Part shown: positions 1,581-46,000 of the stretch, piece after piece
Position numbering within the stretch: the stretch's first letter is position 1
How the letters are laid out: every line of letters begins with the position of its first letter
The notes under the pieces: generated by a model
Told to the model about the DNA's origin: nothing
What the model saw: the letters and a program-made list of their open reading frames with translations, nothing else
Databases searched by the model: none
DNA from: Mesaphorura yosii
Taxonomy: Eukaryota; Arthropoda; Collembola; Poduromorpha; Tullbergiidae
DNA length: 64,000 nt
Direction: 5' to 3'
Assembly (NCBI GenBank): GCA_009869945.1
Contig: WIXG01000302.1
Coordinates: forward strand, 1 to 64,000
Program-made: the position numbers and the translations under genes

Positions 1581-3175
1581 ATGATGAAAACACCACTAGC
1601 CATTGTCGTCCTGTACTTGATGGTGCTGGTACATGGACTCATTCATCATTTACCTCAGCACGTGCCCGGTAAGCAGTTAAGAAAGCGATACGAGTCTGGA
1701 AATCTTCAAGAATATTCACCATTTGGTGCGCCACGCACAAATGCAGACCGCGGAAATGACTGGGACAACGGGTCAACAAAATGAAAATGTGGGTCGTACA
1801 GAATGAATGAGATTTGTGTGTGTTGCAGTAGTGTCACATGAAGCACGTATAACATATGCGTGTTTAGCAAATGGCGAAAAGGACGAAACCGGTTTGGGTT
1901 GAATTTGATAAAGCATTGTTAGAGGCAGTTTTCGCAATGTATTCTGTATCTGGGACGGTTAAAAGCTCGCAATCTTTGCAAAATGTTATTGAATTACATA
2001 CGAATTTAAGATGCCAATTCCATACTCTGATGGTATTGTGCTCGTAACCCATTGAACTCTGTATTTGCCATTGATTTTGATGTTTTGATTGCACTGACAG
2101 ATCCCCGAGTCCAAGACTGGCTGCTGATGAAGTACTGGACTCCCATCGTGCTAATCATAATCTCGTATTTTCTACTGGTGCTGGTTGGGCCAAAGTTAAT
2201 GCAAAATCGCAAACCGTTTGAACTAAAGTATCCAATCAAGCTCTACAATTTGTCCCAAGTATTTCTTTGTGGGTACATGTTCAAAGAGGTAAGATCTCTC
2301 ACATTAGGCTTGGATCTCACGGCGGTTACGTTACTCTTACCTCATGCCTCTTATAATGAATGTTCTCAGTTTCTCGCGTCCTCGTACCAATCCAGTTACA
2401 GTCTCACTTGCCAGCCCGTCGACTACTCCAGCTCTCCACTCGCAATTCGCATTGCGGCAGCGTCCTGGTGGTTTTTCTTCTCCAAACTCATCGACCTTCT
2501 CGACACAGTATTCTTCATCCTGCGGAAGAAGAATGGACAAGTGAGTTTCCTTCACGTGTACCACCACGGGACGATGATCCTGAACTGGTGGCTAGTCGCC
2601 AAGTACACTCCAGGAGGACAAGTCTTCTTCCAGTGCATGCTCAACTCGTATGTGCATGTCGTCATGTACACGTACTACTTCTTCTCGTCTTTTGGTCCCG
2701 CTATTCAGAAGTATTTGTGGTGGAAGAAGTATCTGACACAGTTTCAATTGGTAAGACCCAAACTTGGGAATTTCTGCATAGTTTTTGACATGCAAGTTGC
2801 AAGCATTGCATGACTGATTTCAAACTTCAGATTCAGTTTATCGCCATCATCATTCATCTCGTCAACGGCATGGCCAGAGGAACCTGTGAGTTCCCGCAAA
2901 TCTTCTACTGGTATGTGATTGTGTACTGCGTGACGCTGATTGCACTCTTCACAAACTTTTACGTGGAGACATACAGCCACGTCCTGAAGGACCGGGCCGC
3001 TGCTGCAAAGAAGGAACTGACCACCGGTGCTGGGGCTGTGGCTGCCGCCGAGAGCAATAATAACAATGACATTGTCAGTGTGCAAGAAGTCAAGAAAAAG
3101 CCAATGGGAATCATCATTCACAGAACGCCATACACTGGCTTGAGGACGAATTCAATAGGCATTGATCGCAAATAA
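1581..3175 (+). CDS. ELOVL-type very-long-chain fatty acid elongase
   Basis: This is an ER-membrane 3-ketoacyl-CoA synthase that condenses malonyl-CoA with long-chain acyl-CoA. I join exons 1581-1668, 2101-2288, 2370-2750 and 2831-3175 in phase, giving 333 residues, normal for ELOVLs. Family signs seen: DPRVQDW near the N-terminus, NRKPF, the LDTVFFILRKK block, the catalytic histidine box HVYHH (coded near 2553-2567) followed by NWW, and YLTQFQL before TM6. The tail is Lys-rich, as expected for ER retention. Intron 2 (2289-2369) is 81 bp and has no stop in frame, so a naive reading retains it. The exon 2 frame has no ATG of its own. The start at 1581 is the only upstream ATG whose exon ends with a good donor in the right phase. 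It gives an unusually hydrophobic, signal-like first 29 residues. A poly(A) signal lies at 3251. Family call is firm; exon 1 is less so. Confidence 0.9.
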
Positions 3176-3256
3176 GCTATAAGCTGTTCTTCGACAGAAA
3201 AACTCCAGCGCTCTTGCATTAGAGAAGAATGTAATTATGAAAAGCGACTTAATAAA

Positions 3257-3773
3257 CACGTAAAAGTTATTACGATGAATTAGCGAGAGATATGAATTTT
3301 CAAGCATATTTTCATTCATTTTTTCACAAATCTGCCACTTTGATCACGTTGGACGATGGACATTGCTGATTCAGTACCTAAAGACTGGGTATTGGATAAA
3401 CTGATTTGTATCCTGTGCTGTTTTGTGAGCGACTGCTGAACGCCCGCAACAAAAGAAAGTAGAAGCTCTAGCTTCCAGTTCCTAGGTTGAGATAAGACTT
3501 CTGGACTTCAATTGAGTATCCGCAACCAATTCAAGGTAAGGTTTAATTTTTTATTAATACGCTGTAATTCCACTCTTCCCGTCCGAGGAAAGCTCTTCCG
3601 CTAATAATCAGATCCCAGCCCAAGTATAGGTCCGACTCTAACTTAGAACTAACACCAATTGGGACTCGCTGGTAAATTCCAGTTTACCACTTCAGCCATC
3701 GTTTAGAGGAGCTTCTAGCCGACGTTAACTCTTAAATCTCATCGTTAGCGCTTCGATCAACGGGATCATCAGA
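3257..3773. other. Intergenic and probable FABP 5' UTR
   Basis: No coding exon seen. A donor-like CAAGGTAAGG near 3531-3540 is consistent with a non-coding first exon of the fatty-acid-binding protein gene downstream. Confidence 0.4.
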
Positions 3774-4446
3774 ATGGCATTGAATTTCACTGGGAAGTAT
3801 CAACTAATTGGTTCGGACAAGTTTGACGAGTACATGAAAGCAATTGGTGAGGTCCTACTCCAATTTATCATGACCTTGTGTACATTAAGAGATCGCTAAT
3901 CGTAAAGACGCGTTGGAGTAGACAAAGTTTTTTCCAATGCCATGTTTTTACCACACAGGAGTTGGAATGGTTATGAGGAAGCTCGCGTCAGCTGCCAAAC
4001 CTGTGTATGAAATTAAAAATACCGGGAAAAATTCTTACTCTGTGAAAACATCCACCACGTTTAAGACAACTGAGGTCAGTTTCAAACTCGGGGAGCCTTT
4101 TGAAGAGACCACAACAGATGGGCGCAAGTGTCAGGTGAGTCAATGATTACGAAAAGAACGTATTTGTTGACATGCGCATATGGCGCCTATTCTACAGTTA
4201 TCATTCCCCAGCATCGAGTATTTTTGTAATTTCCAGGCAACAATTACCATGGAATCGGACACTAAAATGAAGCATGTTCAAGTAGCTGGAGGTCAAACAC
4301 TGGTTATATGGCGTGAGTTTTCTCCTACAGAAATGAAAATGACACTGGAGGCTCCAAATGTGATCAGCACTCGAATATACAAAGAAAATCTCTTGATTCA
4401 TAATTCTTACTGTTGTAAATATGTGGAATGTGGCTATTTAAGTTAG
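3774..4446 (+). CDS. Fatty-acid-binding protein (FABP/CRABP family, cytosolic lipocalin)
   Basis: This is an intracellular carrier of long-chain fatty acids or related lipids. Exons 3774-3846, 3959-4134 and 4237-4446 join in phase to 152 residues. The start MALNFTGKYQLIGSDKFDEY is the classic FABP opening (F-x-GKY), followed by MKAIGVG split by the first intron at the usual place. GEPFEETTTDGRK and the VISTRIYK strand near the end match the family beta-barrel. FABPs normally stop one or two residues after the RxYK strand. Here about 20 more residues follow, with several cysteines, to the TAG at 4446. The second intron (4135-4236) and third exon are supported by clean GT/AG borders. Subfamily cannot be set from sequence alone. 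Confidence 0.92.
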
Positions 4447-4625
4447 CATTTTGGATGGAGATTAAACAGTAGTAAGACATCCCGATTGAAATTATTTCGC
4501 CACATCAAAGGCCACTCTTCATTGCAGAGATATGATATTAATTTATTTGTCAGAAAACTCAATAATCGCGGCTGAAAGAGTCAACAAACAACAACTGTGG
4601 CTTGGTCAACACATTATGTCAGGAA

Positions 4626-5558
4626 TCACGCATTGCAAATTTTAGAAGGAGCGCACAGAGTGCAAGCTGTTCCACAGCTGAGAGGACAACTTGTTGAACA
4701 TGGGGTCGCGGCTTCAGAGGCGCCCGTGGTTTGGCTTATGCATTGACGCGCGCCATTGCAGTAGTAATTTCTCCTGGCGCAATGGAATAAGTTGTTGGTG
4801 CATGCCGTCAGAGGCGTAGCGCATACTTTTTGCGGTGATCCGGTGGTGCATTGTCTGCAGGCGCCAGCAGGGCAAGAGGAGGCCGGACAGTCAGTGGAGC
4901 ATTTAGTTATGGGGACATTATTCCCAGTGTTCGTGTTCATGCAAGTGAACTGGCTGGTGCAGACGTAGTTGGTCGTGGGACAATCGAACTGGTCGTTGTA
5001 ACAAGACGGTGAGAGCGGCGGATTGATTGCGGTGGTACTGGTGATTGTCGTTGTCGTTGTGGGTGAGTTCGTCGAAGTGGAAGTCGTGGACGTGGTCGGC
5101 ATGGTGGTAGTTGTTGTAGTCGTAGTCGCTGTCGTGGTCGTAGGCCTTGGCGAAGTCGTACTTGTTCCAGGATTTGGGGGCATGGTTGTGTTTCCTAAGT
5201 TTCCTTCTGGGAGGCACACATTGACAACCACCCTGAAGCACTCATTCTGGACTGCAACGCAAGGCACGACGAGATCGGTAATACATAATTTTATCTGTAG
5301 AAAAGTAGAAATTCCAATTATAATTTTTCCTACCGATTCTTCCGTGAGAAGACATCCATTCGTCATTGACTTCAAGTTCAAGCTCATTTTCCGGTTCGTT
5401 GAGCACAGACTCAAACTGAAATTAAAAAGACTTGTCTCAAGCAATCCGTAAAGCAAGGAAGTGGATGAATGTAAATATTTTGTTCTTACCCTGCTGGTCG
5501 CTGACGCTGACACCGCCCCAGTTACCAGTAAGAAAAGAATCATGTGTCGGTACTCCAT
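4626..5558 (-). CDS. Secreted mucin-like protein with two tandem 10-cysteine modules
   Basis: Family not recognised. The minus-strand model is exon 5558-5490 (signal peptide), 5415-5334 (acidic segment FESVLNEPENELELEV) and 5251-4626, joined in phase to 258 residues. An unspliced frame also runs open through both introns. I prefer the spliced model because its exon 2 is protein-like and its phase matches only the acceptor after 5252. A short domain with VQNECF and VNVCLPEG is followed by a Thr/Ser/Pro linker of about 50 residues, a likely O-glycosylated stalk. Then come two related modules with ten cysteines each (starting CYNDQFDCP and CTNNLFHCA) up to the C-terminus. There is no transmembrane segment, so it is probably extracellular, perhaps cuticular, gut lining or defence related. 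That role is a guess. Confidence 0.75.
   Translation of the reverse strand: MEYRHMILFLLVTGAVSASATSRVRTKYLHSSTSLLYGLLETSLFNFSLSLCSTNRKMSLNLKSMTNGCLLTEESVGKIIIGISTFLQIKLCITDLVVPCVAVQNECFRVVVNVCLPEGNLGNTTMPPNPGTSTTSPRPTTTTATTTTTTTTMPTTSTTSTSTNSPTTTTTITSTTAINPPLSPSCYNDQFDCPTTNYVCTSQFTCMNTNTGNNVPITKCSTDCPASSCPAGACRQCTTGSPQKVCATPLTACTNNLFHCARRNYYCNGARQCISQTTGASEAATPCSTSCPLSCGTACTLCAPSKICNA
5037..5160. repeat. Threonine-codon trinucleotide repeat tract
   Basis: The plus strand reads as imperfect GTN/GTC/GTG triplets. On the minus strand these are ACN threonine codons of the mucin-like stalk, so it is a coding low-complexity repeat likely to vary in length between individuals. Confidence 0.7.
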
Positions 5559-5559
5559 C

Positions 5560-6260
5560 TTGATAATCCAACCTTTTACTGTGTCAAAGTCTGTCTTTCG
5601 AGATTCGAGGAGGTGCAGCGTACGTGTGACCTGATACTTGGGTGGAAAAGCTTAGCTAGTCGACTAAATATAGAAATGCAATAATCTGCGCAAGTTCTTT
5701 CTGTTTCAAGAACGGAAGCAGCATTTTTGATTTTTTCAAGCCACAATTATTTGCACTTTGTAGCGCATGCAGTGTATTAACACCAGCGACAGTGTTTTGA
5801 CTTATATGGCTTGATTTCTCGAGAATTTGCCCAGATGCATGGAAAATTTTTGCGCTTGCATAAACACACCTGGAGGAATCAATGAGATTCGTCGTACGAA
5901 CTTGTTTGCAGATGCTTGTCAACACAGGTGCCTTAAACCGCCAATAATCACTAGTGGACTTTATAAGTGATTGCGTCAACCTGAACAAATACATAATACA
6001 GTCATAATTGAAGATAAAATCAAATGGAACATTACCCATTCAGATTCAAACTGATCAATCGATGCTCCCTATCTCGCGAGATTCTGAACATAACAAATCT
6101 TAGCGAATTTATTGTCATTATTACGTATTATGCTAGGTCAGTCTTCTTGAAGTCTTTCCGAAGTAAAATTAACTTATTAATGTGTTAATAGTAAGACTAA
6201 TTTAATTATCTGATTTACCCTGCACTCCAAACTATTTTCTGAAGTCTGAAATTCCCCCAT
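5560..6260. other. Intergenic, nothing supported
   Basis: AT-rich. An open frame at 5656-6039 (-) has no start context, domain or splice support. No RNA gene or repeat seen. Confidence 0.5.
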
Positions 6261-7459
6261 TTACTGTTGAGGGTCAGCGCCCTTCCCCTCCTTTGCTGGC
6301 TCCGCCAACTTCTTCACGTCGACCTCCATTTTCTTTCGTGCCTTCGCCTCCATTTCTTCCTCCACCTTTGCTTTGATTTCAGCCCAAATGCGGTCTCGCG
6401 GTAAGCGAAACTCGTCGCGTCTTATGTTTGTCTTGAGAGTCACAGGTACCGGATTCAAGCGATGATATCTCTTCGACGTTTCAAGTATGACCCTGAAATC
6501 GATGCTTCTCACAAGCTCCTTGACGTGATTCGGTCCTTCTTGCTTTGCGGATCTGGCGTCGAAAACAGCAAGCTTTTCGTCCATTGTGAGCGATGGAAAT
6601 GGCGGCATAATAAATCCTTTGTGAAAGCCTGACAAATTCATAAAGAAAAAATGAATTAACAATTAATACACTCAGGGAGTCTAAATCTAAGCGTTGCTGA
6701 CGAGCACTTACGATGTTCAACATGTGCCCGTGGTTCAAGTTCGATGCTCATGTCGAAGACTTGCTGGCAGTCGATGTAGAAGGGCAAAATGCTCTCGGGT
6801 GGTGCAGGTGGTGCCTTTTCAGCTTCCTTTCTGTTGCGGAGCCATGGCCAGGTCTTGAACGGTGACTCAATTCTGTAACTCGGTGCCTCCTCGAAGCCCT
6901 CTTCGTCTTCTGCTTGAAGCGCGGCTGCCAATAGTCTATCATGCTCGATTTGGTCGTATACTTCGTCTTCGCAAGCATGAGCACCGTAAAATCCAGAGGA
7001 TGTTGAAGGTGGAGGCTGCAGATGGTCACCAAGCGCTTGAATCTCATCATCGTTTCGTGGATCCGGTTCGTAATCATAATCGAAAAGTGGTTCATCAGGC
7101 GAGAACTGATACTGAAGTCCATTGCAGATAGGACACGGGCCCATCATACAAATTCGCTCATATACGTGTCCATTGTGACATTTAGCTTTGCCAGCGAAGA
7201 AAAGCCTCTCAAGCTCACGCTCAATTTCCTCTTTTGTTTGTGGTCTGCATTCGACCAGCTTGTCCACGGAATCCATATCTTTTTCATCAGGGGCCATCTT
7301 CTCTTTATCGCGTTCGTGGGTGTCATTCTTGGTTTCGAAAGTACGGGAACCCTGGCTCTGGCGATGTTGTGGGAATCCTTCCTCTTCACCTTCCTGCTTC
7401 TTCTTACCGTCTTTGTAAAGGTTGTCCTGTTGAACACTCTTAGCAGAAAATCGGGCCAT
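6261..7459 (-). CDS. Uncharacterised acidic protein with a Cys/His cluster
   Basis: Not recognised. Exon 1 runs 7459-6712 and exon 2 6628-6261. The 83-bp intron joins CAT C to GC TTT in phase, giving 371 residues. The N-terminal 90 residues are Lys/Glu/Gln-rich and hydrophilic. Around residues 90-115 is a Cys/His cluster, CHNGHVYERICMMGPCPICN, that could bind a metal. It is followed by an acidic stretch (FSPDEPLFDYDYEPDPRNDD) and a segment rich in Glu. Exon 2 contains GFIMPPFPS and ends in a charged helix (EIKAKVEEEMEAKARKKM). No signal peptide or membrane segment, so it is probably intracellular. The two-exon structure and long constrained frame make a real gene very likely. Confidence 0.75.
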
Positions 7460-8647
7460 TGTTGAACCTACAAATCAATAGAAACACACCGAAATCGATT
7501 CACAATCGAACAGAACTCAATCTAATGATGATTGCATGCAAACGGTTTGGGTACAACTCGTAATTTACCACACTTATCGATCTCAGCGGGCGTCTCAAGT
7601 CAGCAGCCGAAATCAGACCACCTTGCAGATAAACTAATTCCACCGCCTTTGGATTCTCAAAATTGAAAAACAGTTGATGATGAAAATGAGCTGCTAAGAG
7701 ATCTAACAATGAATTACATCGAATGAACTCACACTCAACTAAAAGCTGTTGATTATTATTTTGTAAAATTCGTCAACGCACATGGATGGATCCAACCCAA
7801 CTGACGACGATGACGCGTCGTTTCACTTCAACTGTCGGCAGACTTCGTAATCTGCGTACTGAAACTGTAATTATTGCAGTACATCACACTAAACTACCAC
7901 GTCAAGGGGTCACCACTCAAAGCTCTCCATCCTTTCATTTGCATGTCTTCCATTCGAGGTCTGGTCAACGTTTCATAACAAATGAGAATGACAATTATGA
8001 TTGCAAGCGTCCCTTGAAGATGCACACTGCCATTCTGCTGCGTTACGTTCTCGCGTTGCTTTTTGGCTGGGAAAGACGAGACAGATTTCAGACAAGCCAG
8101 CGCGATCTCGCTCAGTTGAATGTTTTGACCTTCAAGTGGAGTCCAGCCCAGTCCAAAGCAAAGCTAAATTTTTAACTCGAGTAATGACTGCAGCAGCACT
8201 AGATCAAGAGAATCAAGACTCGTCGATAACACTAACATTACTCCACATTACGTAATTCGATTCGTAAAGAGCCAGAACAGTCAACAACAAGTTCACTTTA
8301 ATCTCGTTGAGTGATGTAAACGAGACACAGAACGAGAATCACAAAGCAGATATCAAACCGGACTGGTAATTTGATTTAGCGGCGTCTGGTTCTTTGGTAA
8401 GTAAGCCCGTGAGTTAAATACTTAAACAAATGCATTACTTCTCACTAAATAGATTTGTCTTGCATTGTTGGATTTGCAGTTGGAGTGGCTGAGCGTATGA
8501 TAAGCTCAGCGCCCGATCTTAACATTTGTGAGTATACCTAGCTACAGTCAATGGTAAGTTACGATTCTTGGCGGGTCTTAGGGCCTAGCCACACAACACC
8601 AGCCCATTTATGAGAATCTTGTGTTTTTAAATTAGAAACTACAAACC
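7460..8647. other. Intergenic, no coding gene seen
   Basis: Frames such as 7786-8175 (+) have no family resemblance and unlikely composition. Donor- and acceptor-like sites near 8398 (GGTAAGTAAG), 8479 and 8530 suggest short non-coding exons of a downstream plus-strand transcript, unproven. Confidence 0.4.
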
Positions 8648-8791
8648 ATGAATTGTATCTGGACACGAAGCGTCGCTGTCGGCATACCGAAATCTTTTAG
8701 ATACAGCCGATTTAGTACCGCGACTGCACTATGTACTCCTAGAGAAGGACCCATTCTGCCACCATCAAATACTGCCAGCAAGTACGAATAA
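8648..8791 (+). CDS. Possible small mitochondrial-type protein (47 aa)
   Basis: An ATG frame at 8648-8791 encodes 47 residues. The first 25 (MNCIWTRSVAVGIPKSFRYS and on) are Arg/Ser-rich, amphipathic and free of acidic residues, as in a mitochondrial presequence. The remainder is Pro-rich and ends NTASKYE. A donor-like AGCAAGTACG at 8777 could instead splice it to further exons that I could not find. No homologue recognised. It lies just upstream of the camello-like gene and could be part of its 5' leader. Confidence 0.3.
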   Translation: MNCIWTRSVAVGIPKSFRYSRFSTATALCTPREGPILPPSNTASKYE

Positions 8792-9186
8792 TACATTTAT
8801 GACTTGAAATACTTGTAATCCTGTGCCGTGTCATTCCTTTCCCAACCGCCGCCAGTCGCTTATTCTTAGCGTCTTCCTAACCGAGCTTTCTTCTTATGCT
8901 GTGAATTTGGTTTGGTTTTGAAGTTTTGAAGTTGGGTGTGAATGCTTAATGTAAAATACGAAGAAACAATTTCTACTATAACTCCTTGTGTCTCTACATG
9001 CGCTTAGGAAGTAATGACACAGTTTGCGTGTTTTCTAACAAGATCGAATTTGTTTTTCTTGTTATTCAGACTCTGAACTCCAGTGCGCGAGTGAAGTGAA
9101 GTGTTAAGTGACAAGCAACACCACGAATCGAAAATCGAAGAGATTATAGATCACCAGTTGGGACAAGCCGATCAAAAGGCAGAACA

Positions 9187-40259: not shown

Positions 40260-41588
40260 ATGGGTATCCTAGAAAGGATTTCGGAAATTGAAAAGGAGAT
40301 TGCAAGAACTCAAAAGAATAAAGGTGAATCGCTCTTGAATTGCTTTCAGCTATGTCCATCAGTGTCGTGAACGATAAGGTCAATGAAACTGCCCTGTTTT
40401 CTAGCCACTGAATATCACTTGGGTGTGCTGAAAGCCAAGTTAGCCAAATACCGGTCACAGTTGCTAGAGCCGGCGAAGAAGGGCGAAAAGGGTGAAGGCT
40501 TCGATGTACTAAAGAGTGGAGACGCCCGCGTGGCTCTGATCGGCTTCCCGTCAGTGGGAAAGGTGATACAAAAATAACTACAAACAAATTCTAATTTACT
40601 AAATATGCAATTTTATGCCACTTCTTTATAATGGTTTGATTTAGTCCACTCTGCTATCAACTGTCACGAAGACTGAGAGCGAATGCGCGTCTTATGAGTT
40701 TACAACATTAACTTGTATTCCTGGAGTGATCGAATACAAGGGCGCAAATATCCAGCTGCTTGATTTGCCCGGGATGTAAGTGCAAAGTCGAACTTTAGAG
40801 CTTTTGCAAAAATGTCCGAATTGATGTAATTTGAAATTGTATTTTTCAGTATTGAAGGCGCCGCCCAGGGCAAAGGTCGCGGTCGACAAGTCATTGCAGT
40901 TGCTCGAACTGCCGACACGGTGCTCATGATGCTGGACGCCACGAAAGGTGAAATTCAAAGACAACTTCTGGAGGCAGAGTTAGAAACGGTCGGAATTCGA
41001 TTGAATAAGAGAAAGCCCAACATATACTTCAAGGCGAAGAAGGCTGGTGGGATCTCATTCACTGCCACCTGCAATTTAACTCGTGTCGATGAGAAGTTGA
41101 TTCAAATGATTCTTCACGAATACAAAATATTCAACGCCGAAGTGCTCTTTCGTGAAGATTGCTCAGCTGACGACCTAATCGATGTGATTTCTGGAAATCG
41201 AGTTTACATGCCTTGTCTTTACGTTTACAACAAAATTGATCAAATCTCCATTGAAGAAGTTGATCGAATCGCCAGGTTGCCAAACTCCGTTGTGGTGAGC
41301 TGCAATATGAAGCTTAACCTTGAATATCTTCTGGAAGTGCTTTGGGAGTATTTGGCATTGATTCGGGTGTACACAAAGAAGCCTTCACAGCAACCAGACT
41401 TCAGTGATGCCATCATATTAAGGAGGGGAGTCACCGTGGAACACGTTTGCCATTCCATCCACAGAACGATTGCAGACCAATTCAAGTACGCCTTGGTCTG
41501 GGGCACAAGCACGAAGTACTCGCCGCAGAGGGTCGGCCTTTCGCATGTAATGCACGACGAAGATGTGGTACGAATCGTCAAAAAATAA
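40260..41588 (+). CDS. DRG2: Developmentally regulated GTP-binding protein 2
   Basis: Cytosolic OBG/DRG-family GTPase linked to translation. Exons 40260-40323, 40405-40562, 40645-40775 and 40850-41588 join to 363 residues (human 364). The N-terminal helix [20 protein letters not shown] is near-identical to animal DRG2. G1 is GFPSVGKST (split by intron 2), G3 DLPG, G4 NKID, then the C-terminal TGS domain ending [17 protein letters not shown] and [15 protein letters not shown] at about 41626 may be the poly(A) signal. Its 3' end converges with the terpene-synthase-like relic only 130 bp away. Confidence 0.98.
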
Positions 41589-41718
41589 TCCGAACCAATC
41601 GAACACCGGATGCAATTTCATACTTTATTAAAGCATTTGTAATTGTACAAGCCAGTCACTACAATTCGTTGTTACATTAAATCAGGGAGAATTGGCCGCT
41701 TGTTGCTACTTTAAATGT

Positions 41719-42573
41719 TAAGCCTTGACCTTATCGACTACCGTGAGTTTATTTTCATGCCCGTATCTTCCAACGATTGTGTAGCCAAACAGAATTCCAT
41801 CGACGGTAGCATCGAGCAGCTGGACATATTTTTCGCCACGCGATTTCGAGCAGTCAGGAATAAGTCGTCTTTTCTGACAAGCGGATCCAGTTGAGTGCCT
41901 TGGAAAACGGCGATCATTTCAATGACGAAGGGAATTTCGCATAAATGTGTCCTGAGCTCGAGCATCGATATTTCGGAGAACTTTTCAGTCTCCCCATTCC
42001 TGTCGAATCCAATCGAAATGTAGTGCGCCGTGATGACCGACAGCAGCATTCCCTTGAGGACTTCTTGGTACGCATCCTTGAAGTCGAGCACCTGATCGAG
42101 TAGAGTTTTGATGCACTGGTTGAACCGCTGCATCTCCAAAATTCCCGAAGGCAAGTGGTCAGGACTCGGCAGCTCCGTGTTGTTTCTCCACGAAGCGGCG
42201 AATCCCTCGTAGTCAAAGTCGTCGAACGATGCGAGTGCATCGGGACCGAGCGAATCGTAAAAGTCGTCAAAAATGAAGAGGAAAATGAAGATCTGCGACA
42301 TGGCGCTACATTTCTCGCCTTCCAGATCCATTCCATTGGTTAGGAGTGAGGAGAGTATCTGTCCTTTGATCTTGTCCTCGATTTCACCCAAGTCCGGTAC
42401 TTTGAAATAGTCGCGCCTGTGACCTCCTGCACTCGCTTCGCATTCTCCCTGATTGCTGCCAGCCGTTCCTGGAACTTATGTGGAAGGGTAGCTCTCCAGT
42501 CACGCCAGTGGCCTTGCCGTACACGGGTCGTCGATGTCAGCGAAATCGAATCGGAGCACGGATCCACTGTACT
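41719..42573 (-). pseudogene. Degenerate class I terpene-synthase-like gene (microbial type)
   Basis: Terpene synthases of this fold cyclise or ionise prenyl diphosphates. The central minus frame (42400-41870) shows FIFLFIFDDFYDSLG, the aspartate-rich DDxxD metal motif (42268-42254) on a hydrophobic helix. It then shows a helix with LRTHLCEIPFVIEMIAVFQG, like the pyrophosphate-sensor arginine helix. In another frame (41860-41719) YVQLLDATVDGILFGYTIVG and RYGHENK match the last helix with its Arg-Tyr pair. Roughly 100 residues that should lie between, including the second metal motif (NDxxSxxxE), are missing. Further frame changes occur near 42410 (VQEVTG to YFKVPDL) and near 42500-42540. No GT-AG intron explains the changes. 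I read it as a broken relic or a truncated copy. Identification rests on motifs and fold order only. Confidence 0.5.
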
Positions 42574-43036
42574 CAAATGTCTATCATTGTAGTAACAAAC
42601 TCAAATCTACTGCAACTCTAGCTTACTACTCTGTAACAAAGCACAATTCCGAATTGTTATGCGGCGGCTCAAGACAGATGAAGACTAAAGATATATGAGG
42701 AAGCTCATTTTCTCAATTACATGAGAAGTAAGAACTTTTGTGACGATGGTGAATTAGAAATCATTACATGATGGACCACGGCAAGGTTAATTGCAACGCG
42801 ATCTGCATGCGCTGTGTTAACAAGCTTAAGTTTAATAGACACAAAGGACACAGGGAAATTCACTCGGCCTCTGAATTTCCAGCTTATCGCACTTTCTTGA
42901 ATTTTTTGCGCAATCCGTCCGTGAGAATTTTGCTCTTTATTAAACACAACTAAATAACTATGACTATGTCTTAATCAACTAAACACTATTCAATTAGCAT
43001 GATGCTAAGGTGACTTGGTTCCTTCATCGTCCCTTC
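42574..43036. other. Intergenic
   Basis: Nothing supported. A small frame at 42717-42947 (-) has no family or splice support. Confidence 0.45.
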
Positions 43037-46000
43037 TTAAAGGGTGAACGGCTTCTCTGTAATATTGAAGTCAAAGCAACGCATGTGAATGTAACATTCA
43101 TTCTATGGTTTATTACGTATAAGTGTTCAAGTTAAGACTTACCGTAGAGCTGGGTGACTGGTGCGAGATAGCCACCAGAGTTCCTCTTCGACTTGTAAAT
43201 GATGCCAATTCCCTGCAAGGCCTTACGAGCCAGGGTTGGAGCATGTGAAGCCTGGAAGTCAAAGAACGGAACCACAGCCTGCCCACCGTCAGACTGTAAA
43301 TACAAAAGCAAGAGATTAAGATCACGCATTGGGAGTGAAATTAATGCGAATATGAATTAGCGAATGCAACTCGCCTTGAGTGAAGTCGCATCAAATTCAA
43401 TCGTTTTGGTGTTGTCAGGAATATCAAAAGGCTGAGAGGGTCCGTGCTGCTTGAATGGAGAGCTGACATCGTCCAACTTGATCACCTTCCTCGGAGTCAC
43501 GGGTTCTGGGTCGTGAGGAGCTTGCCACGTGGACTCGGTGCCTGCCAAAATTCAGGAAAACTTTTATTCAAATATTTAAGCCAGATGACCGGCTTAAGAT
43601 TGGCGTATGTGTTTGCCTGCTGTTGGAAGCAGTCCAGTGCCTTTGTCCAGTTTGGTGAGTTGCGCCTCGATTGACAGCGAGTTCTCTCCGAATTTGACAA
43701 ACTTAATTCCTGTAATGATTTGGTCAGGATGGGCACGCACGATGTCCAGATTCATGTCTCTGAACCCCTTCGATCCCAGTTTGATAGCTTTTGTTGGATC
43801 TGCTTTGTCGATGGGCTCACGCGGGAGCCAACGCAGAGTGGAAGCGTCAATGTCGCCATCAGCCAACAGCTTGCCTTCTTCAATCTACAAATTCACTGAG
43901 ATCAATAAACAGCCCACAATCCGTGTTGGACAATTTCTCACATTGAGTCGCAGCGTATTGTTTTCTTGCTCGAATCTGACCGCAGTCACAGCAAAGCCTT
44001 CAGCGATGTTGGACACCGCCTCGCTGAGGTCGACAAAATGATTTCCTGCTGGTACCATCGGGTCATCACAAACACAAAGACACACTTCGCAGTATTGCGG
44101 TGCGGTGAGAATCACGCCAAACTCCATGTCCCAACGCTCTAGTGTTTTCATCACTTCATTCTCACAGGCTGGGGTTCCGGTCGCGGAGCCTCCATCAGGA
44201 CCTGGAATGATTTGAACAAGTGGCAAAATTAAAGAAGCATTTGCTGAACCGTTATTCAAAACTCAGAAGAACTCACTGTTGGTTGTCCCGGTCGCTGTTC
44301 GAACCTCGCCGGCAATGCTGATCCAGTCGTAAAGACGGTCCTCAGATTTGGATGGACAGAATGTAATTTCCTGGGCAGTCCTCTCGCACTAAATACGTGA
44401 AAAGAATGGGAACATGAACACGAGTCTGAGTCTTGAGTCTGGATTAAAGTACATTCAAGAATTGACAGTTAATTCACCTTTCTCGCTTTGTGGGGACACT
44501 TGGACTTCTCCATACAATTCTTTCCAGGTTCGCAGACGGATTGGCGGTAAATGTCACAGTGGTCGTTATTATCGCATGTCGCCACTGGCTTCTTGTAGTC
44601 AGGGCAGGTACCAACGCAAGATCCCTTCGGGTTCAGTACGGGTTCAGCTTCCAAATAGCCCTGCATTGGAAAACTGTTAAAATATGCCATTATAGATATC
44701 ATGGCTATGCTATGCTATACGAATCATACCGAGTAAGCGTTGTGGAAAGAATAAGACCCCAGCGTGGTGTTGTCAGATGGCCGTCGAGGATCCAAGTACG
44801 GACAAATGCCTGGCGGTCCACACTGTGGGTCAGGTCCGGGTGGTTGTGGTGTGCAGCTGAATTTGCCCCATTCTGGTTGTGCCCTGATGAACGGGCTAGC
44901 AGACGCGTGGGAAGTTGGCAACTGGCCGTACGTCTTGTATACAATCTCGACCTCAACGCCCTGCTGCACGGTGTCATTCTTGTCAACAACTTTCCCTTCC
45001 GAATTCAAGCTGTACAGAAGTTCCGAGTTGTCGATTGGATTTCTGGTGTCCGCATGCACAAACTGCTTGACCGGTTCGACTCCGGGAATGCGAGCGCCAT
45101 TCTCGTAAAGTGGGTACTTGGTTTCGGCATCTAAATCGACAGATAAATGTTCACTCACTCATTTGTTTTGTAACAAGTTTCAAGTTTGATAAGTACCGAT
45201 TTTGGCCTCCGCTTCGCCAATGTAAACTTTATTGTCTTTGATTGTGACCGTGGGGTCGTCAGGGTCCTGGATACAAGATGGTTCTTTGCTGATATCCGGA
45301 ATGTCACAGTTCATGAACAGTGGCCCCTCCGCAACGGTCTCTTTCGGAAGTTCGCCGCCCAATTTGATCTTTTTGTCTATACGCTCGGTGAGGCTCTTCA
45401 TTATCCCTTCGAATGTGCTTGTGATATCGATTGGGTCATCTGTTCACCGACAAATATTACGTAACAATGTAATGAAGAAATTTTGTCCTTTAAGTTGAAT
45501 TGTCGTAGTATTAAGCTACCTTTCCCCTGTGCCTGCTTGTAAGCCGTGTGAAGTGCGACAGTCATCTGGAAAATCGCGTACTTCATATCGGCCATGATCA
45601 AGTAGAGCGCAGCATCAGTCAACAAGTCAAACGCATCGTGGATAGTCGCGAATTTATTTGTGCCATAGCAGTATTTGTTTGTGTCAGTCTTTCTTGGGTC
45701 CCAGTCTAGAATCTAAGCAAGTAAATTCGCTCATTAGTGGACAGATTAAACTTCCAGAGAAATTAGGTCATTGTCATCCTTACATCTTTTCGAAGAATTC
45801 TTTCTAGGCCACGAATGAGTTGATTCTTTTCGCCCATCGCGTCGAATTCAGTGTGAATGTAGTTGACCATCACCTCAGGGCTTTGAAGCTCATAAAGATC
45901 TGGCAAAAACAATAACGAGAAGGTCATCTTCACATTTTCAAAGCATCTAAGGTACCGAAATAGGTTAACGTTACAATGAAGGTTAATGCGGGTACGCGCT

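Follow-up and report, generated by a model that had tools for sequence, protein, structure and literature searches.

Canonical class I (that is, microbial-type) terpene synthases (TPS) of arthropods are reportedly the subject of Chen et al. 2024 (PNAS), in which mites and springtails are covered. Large families of laterally acquired TPS genes have been described in the trombidid mites Leptotrombidium deliense and Dinothrombium tinctorium (PMC6275457), and five TPS genes of fungus gnats appear to be mite-derived (PMC12051294, citing Chen et al. 2024), according to the excerpts of both sources used here. The presence of microbial-type TPS in some mites, which the first-pass annotation of the present locus had mentioned, is borne out by the mite excerpt (PMC6275457).

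The window analyzed here (the whole stretch of DNA, 64,000 nucleotides, on contig C302) holds a TPS relic on the minus strand, at 41718–42568, made of five collinear pieces that occupy three reading frames and are separated by four frame changes. Both properties expected of a pseudogene, namely homology to uninterrupted paralogues and disabling lesions, are found at this locus, and the region is, with a probability of about 90%, a pseudogenized canonical class I TPS gene from a multi-copy family of the animal nuclear genome. The first-pass annotation had placed the relic correctly, and the three strings that it quoted are all found on the minus strand: FIFLFIFDDFYD and LRTHLCEIPFVIEM, both in a 245-aa stop-free frame (41738–42475), and GYTIVGRYG in a second frame (41718–41918). 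The several frame changes that it reported amount to four; however, three more N-terminal pieces, two of them weak, which extend the relic to about 42568, had gone unmentioned.

To assess homology, ten paralogues found in this genome (C556a, C556b, C556c, C556d, C556e, C349, C116b, C980, C246, and C1046), with no row from the window, were combined in a profile, which was run on the 2063 window ORFs of at least 20 residues. The central piece (41837–42385, minus strand; profile positions 84–268) lies inside the 245-aa frame, bears a DDxxD motif (DDFYD) and a sensor-like helix, and matches the profile with E = 5.7e-18. The C-terminal piece (41718–41834, minus strand; positions 341–375), which holds an Arg-Tyr motif and a stop codon and is 50% identical to C246 over 34 aa, matches with E = 1.6e-8, and the best window ORF outside the relic reaches E = 1.3. 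The central and C-terminal matches sustain the relic of a microbial-type TPS as originally proposed. Motifs as short as DDxxD are frequent and could have arisen by chance in another helical protein, but two collinear pieces with such E-values leave this explanation a very small probability.

Frame-tolerant alignment of the relic to 16 paralogues gave scores of 131, 122, 118, 112, 105, and 99 for the six best, headed by C556b (131; 72 of 228 positions identical), and of 37–83 for the remaining ten, several of which are at background level. The background, determined for C556b and C1046 on 110 chunk-strands of 1.1 kb (the 116 of the window minus six at or beside the relic, the best of which, besides the relic, scored 47), has a mean of 36.7, a standard deviation of 6.0, and a maximum of 71, against 131 and 112 for the relic. 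This maximum comes from one paralogue alone, with the other 15 of the 16 scoring 32–45 at the same place. A second apparent TPS stretch at 57–58 kb of the window was rejected as chance.

With Pfam hits considered up to E = 1, PF19086 (Terpene_syn_C_2) is the sole family that matches the central frame (E = 0.0024; 18.1 bits versus a curated cut-off of 23.7, which is not passed), and no other helical family emerged, in keeping with the initial assignment; in NCBIfam the same frame has no match at 0.01. The PF19086 cut-off is passed by two of the ten profile paralogues (C556c, 28.0; C349, 43.8) and missed by four (C556d, 23.4; C116b, 22.6; C980, 20.5; C246, 20.5), and the other four (C556a, C556b, C556e, and C1046) have no match to the family at 0.01. 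When the genome is searched with the central frame, C556 copies are found at 2.1e-5 and 4.3e-4, and the window is not among the matches listed in genome searches with PF19086 or C556c. The best blastp matches of the relic among uninterrupted copies are C556a (3.7e-9) and C556b (3.1e-8). A single-sequence AlphaFold model of the central frame (mean pLDDT 38.9) is too poor to judge the fold.

Upstream of the central piece, the relic continues in three short N-terminal pieces on the minus strand. The first (42524–42568; profile positions 15–29) lies in a frame of its own, open at 42503–42580 and without an ATG, and matches the profile with a non-significant E = 1.3 and the broken copy on C959 with a blastp E of 3.4e-4 (small local set). 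The second (42468–42527, second frame; positions 29–48) reaches E = 0.0048 with the profile and 4.2e-4 by blastp with C556d, and the third (42394–42480, third frame) shows similarity only to the broken copies on C970 and C959, which is weak (blastp E = 0.024 and 0.15, small local set). At the junction between the central and C-terminal pieces (41834–41837, minus strand), about 72 profile positions (269–340) are absent according to the limits of the profile matches and to the paralogue alignments, and the NSE metal motif is lost with them; the absence of this motif had been recognized beforehand, but the missing part had been overestimated at about 100 residues. An AATAAA at 41624–41629 (minus strand), read by eye on the 3' side of the relic stop, is a candidate poly(A) signal.

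Other genes of the window lie in several exon-like pieces, and the frame changes could likewise be read as the introns of a functional spliced gene. Nevertheless, adjacent pieces of the relic touch one another or share a few bases (42524/42527, 42468/42480, 42394/42385, and 41837/41834), leaving no room for introns, the frames of 15 paralogues are uninterrupted, and the NSE segment is found nowhere in between, all of which makes a spliced gene very improbable. The central frame, on the other hand, is long and stop-free: its openness over 735 nt of the minus strand was reproduced in only 2 of 4000 Markov simulations, and the codon-position GC of its homologous part (0.53/0.32/0.64) is near that of the six paralogues measured. 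A long stop-free frame with a coding-like third-position GC suggests a recent decay, or possibly sequence error. For the gene to be intact in the animal, however, four frame changes and the loss of 72 positions within less than 900 bases would all have to be assembly or sequencing errors at once, in the same assembly that keeps one open frame in 15 paralogues, which renders this explanation improbable.

In class I cyclases, the Asp-rich and NSE motifs hold Mg2+, and the prenyl diphosphate is ionized and cyclized in a helical pocket. The DDFYD of the pseudogene aligns to the DDQLD of C556a–c, and its GRYG to the RY of the C556 paralogues, so that the DDxxD and C-terminal Arg-Tyr hallmarks named in the first-pass annotation hold. 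The sensor-like helix is present as well, but its standing as a hallmark is uncertain because its Arg lies one column off the Arg common to C556a–c and C349. The family also departs from the textbook NSE motif, NDxxSxxxE, since N-x-x-x-G-L-x-(R/K)-D is found at this place in nine of the ten profile members (columns around N266 of C556c), with Ala after the Asn in seven of the ten rows and Gly at the usual place of Ser. C116b (L027:1486–2580), an uninterrupted TPS-like frame lacking DDxxD and with a degenerate NSE region, is perhaps not a working cyclase, judging from these motifs. The working members of the family are predicted, from what is known of such families, to be class I cyclases acting by the same chemistry. 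With neither the NSE part nor a continuous frame, the relic should yield no active enzyme.

The assembly searched (93.0 Mb, 1127 contigs) holds at least nine matches to PF19086, all above the cut-off, and at least 20 to C556c, including C556c itself and some genes in pieces. A search of the assembly for COX1 yielded no match. Joined by place, and complemented with ORFs and profile hits, these matches define at least 21 TPS-like places: six on C556, two each on C116 and C959, and one each on C349, C980, C970, C246, C1046, C175, C242, C1048, C1022, C581, and C302. C964 was kept out of the 21; it reaches 27.7 bits (9.1e-5) for PF19086, but covers profile positions 24–120 only, in a 132-aa frame, and is not among the C556c matches listed. 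The intact paralogues that the first-pass annotation had expected elsewhere in the genome do exist, in the sense that a single frame of at least 330 residues is found at 15 of the 21 places (C556a, cut by the contig start, is counted among them), for which activity is predicted at most. C1046 is also cut by the start of its contig, C116a is split in two ORFs, and of C959a a C-terminal half alone was recovered, and the broken copies are C970, C959b, and the one in the window.

The broken TPS of C970 (L045, 3297–4518, minus strand) and C959 (L047, 6010–7264, minus strand) are spread over several frames and group near the relic. The six TPS-like genes of C556 are arrayed in about 12 kb (L012 and L013, C556:1–20000), and the GC content of L012 is 0.52, compared with 0.42–0.48 in the other 13 loci measured. 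Long TPS-like ORFs of 577 and 671 aa were observed in L019 (2750–4480, minus strand) and L020 (2231–4243, plus strand), with some 300–400 N-terminal residues that have no Pfam match.

Searches of bacterial genome contigs gave 175 pattern matches and seven relatives, all of the C175/C242/C1048 type, and viral contigs gave 136 pattern matches and no relatives. Four of these seven relatives and six other Archangium matches provided the ten bacterial rows of an IQ-TREE phylogeny, which comprises 30 rows in total, the other 20 being from the genome itself, with no fungal and no other arthropod rows. The relic falls inside a 14-row own-genome clade with a support of 100/100, apart from the ten bacterial rows, and inside an 11-row fork (93/90) within that clade. 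There is no supported order in this fork among the relic and the C556a–c, C556d–e/C980, and C1046/C970/C959 groups, and the relic may be, as far as the tree goes, the only recovered copy of its own lineage. An identity of only about 20–32% between its central part and the nearest paralogues would suit a horizontal transfer independent of the one or ones that gave rise to the other TPS of the genome. However, the placement in the 14-row clade, in a tree that lacks fungal and other arthropod sequences, makes such an independent origin quite improbable.

The branch that puts all own rows on one side has a support of only 28/0, and there may consequently have been one transfer or several. Among solved structures, the best match of the ten-paralogue profile is presilphiperfolan-8-beta-ol synthase 8h6q, which we take to be fungal (E = 2.6e-10), while pentalenene synthase 1ps1, presumably bacterial, reaches only E = 0.032, and C556c by itself has no PDB match at 0.01. 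The family profile also matches a profile of five bacterial TPS rows with a probability of 97.3% (E = 1.9e-11). Because the best solved-structure relatives of the family profile are microbial cyclases, it is likely, at the level of sequence comparison, that the family reached the animal genome by past horizontal transfer, a possibility that had been raised from the outset. The ancestral gene would have been acquired by the animal lineage from a microbe, directly or through another arthropod, and the family would then have multiplied, with the copy in the window being inactivated by a deletion and small indels.

The convergent neighbor of the relic, which is not part of it, is a gene for a DRG-type GTPase (40371–41588, plus strand), named from its domains: Pfam MMR_HSR1_Xtn (4.5e-44) and TGS (2.5e-22) match within 40830–41588, with earlier exons taken from ORFs. 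On the upstream side, the region 43000–44100 (minus strand) probably corresponds to a spliced gene, with two exon-like ORFs that have no Pfam match. Other genes of the window encode an ELO elongase, Smg8/9, a ligand-gated channel, and glutamine synthetase, and Rfam identifies one tRNA; the animal genes of the window fit an arthropod origin. Host-like genes are also found near TPS elsewhere, such as a serpin on C556, an ABC transporter on C175, and P450s together with a chitinase-like piece on C1048. As these TPS lie amid host-like genes, microbial contamination of these contigs is unlikely.

Some TPS loci outside the window are linked to genes of prenyl-diphosphate synthases (PF00348). In L017 (C242:56001–66000), a TPS at 4155–5429 (plus strand) lies amid three PF00348 copies spanning 7.5 kb, with pieces at 1301–2574, 5548–6481, and 7789–8713 of the locus (minus strand). 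On C116 (L021 and L043, C116:62001–80000), a prenyl-diphosphate-synthase-like PF00348 gene at 71874–72966, with a stop inside its first piece, is located between two TPS places (about 67026–68598 and 73979–75073). PF00348 occurs above the cut-off on ten contigs, of which C242 and C116 are two. The expected number of such linkages is 0.01 to 0.03, with P from about 5e-5 (2.5-kb flanks) to 3e-4 (10-kb flanks), in a rough post hoc footprint calculation that takes genes as randomly placed and serves only as a guide.

A third locus, L018 (C1048:1–10000, on a contig of 11.7 kb), holds two P450s (2682–4518, plus strand, and 4788–6200, minus strand), a short-chain dehydrogenase (SDR; 6651–7492, plus strand), and a TPS (7654–8826, minus strand) within about 6 kb, a group that resembles a small biosynthetic cluster. 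With the C1048 P450s as tblastn queries, no P450 was detected in the window, nor in the other 17 own-genome stretches searched. Terpene gene clusters of such a kind occur in fungi and soft corals. It may tentatively be suggested, with more doubt than confidence, that the relic is the last trace of one lineage in a transferred TPS family built into true terpene gene clusters (C242, C116, and C1048), in which substrate supply, cyclization, and decoration are neighbors. If the linked prenyl-diphosphate-synthase and P450 genes cooperate, an arthropod terpene pathway would become testable gene by gene. These linkage loci, which are outside the relic itself, are more interesting than the relic.

With respect to PF19086, 8h6q, and 1ps1, the own-genome paralogues exhibit homology at the profile level, whereas in the relic the NSE segment is missing and the reading frame is broken. 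The literature listed, retrieved with queries that did not include the word "pseudogene", held no paper on broken mite TPS copies or on mite TPS beside prenyl-synthase genes. As TPS families are known from trombidid mites, going by the excerpt cited, the relic, as a broken copy of an already known type of gene, is fairly ordinary, and by itself it changes little. Multi-copy families of canonical TPS among the nuclear genes of an animal are common to the mites and the present genome. The mite TPS are at most 30% identical to their microbial relatives, with one beside a host gene (PMC6275457, in the excerpt cited), and distant microbial relatives and a host neighbor are likewise seen here. Unlike the trombidid mites, which carry carotenoid synthase-cyclases according to the same excerpt (PMC6275457), this genome has PF00494 at one place only, in three pieces. 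With a single such place, there is no sign here of the carotenoid synthase-cyclases of the mites. That place we take to be perhaps NDUFAF6. In the fungus gnat, where the TPS are canonical as they are here, a transfer between arthropods has been proposed (PMC12051294, in the excerpt available). Finally, while the mite excerpt describes gene families rather than broken copies (PMC6275457), broken copies are found here, and the raw sequence thus shows, in a further arthropod-like genome, canonical TPS that are resident and turning over, with a single assembly containing both broken and unbroken copies.
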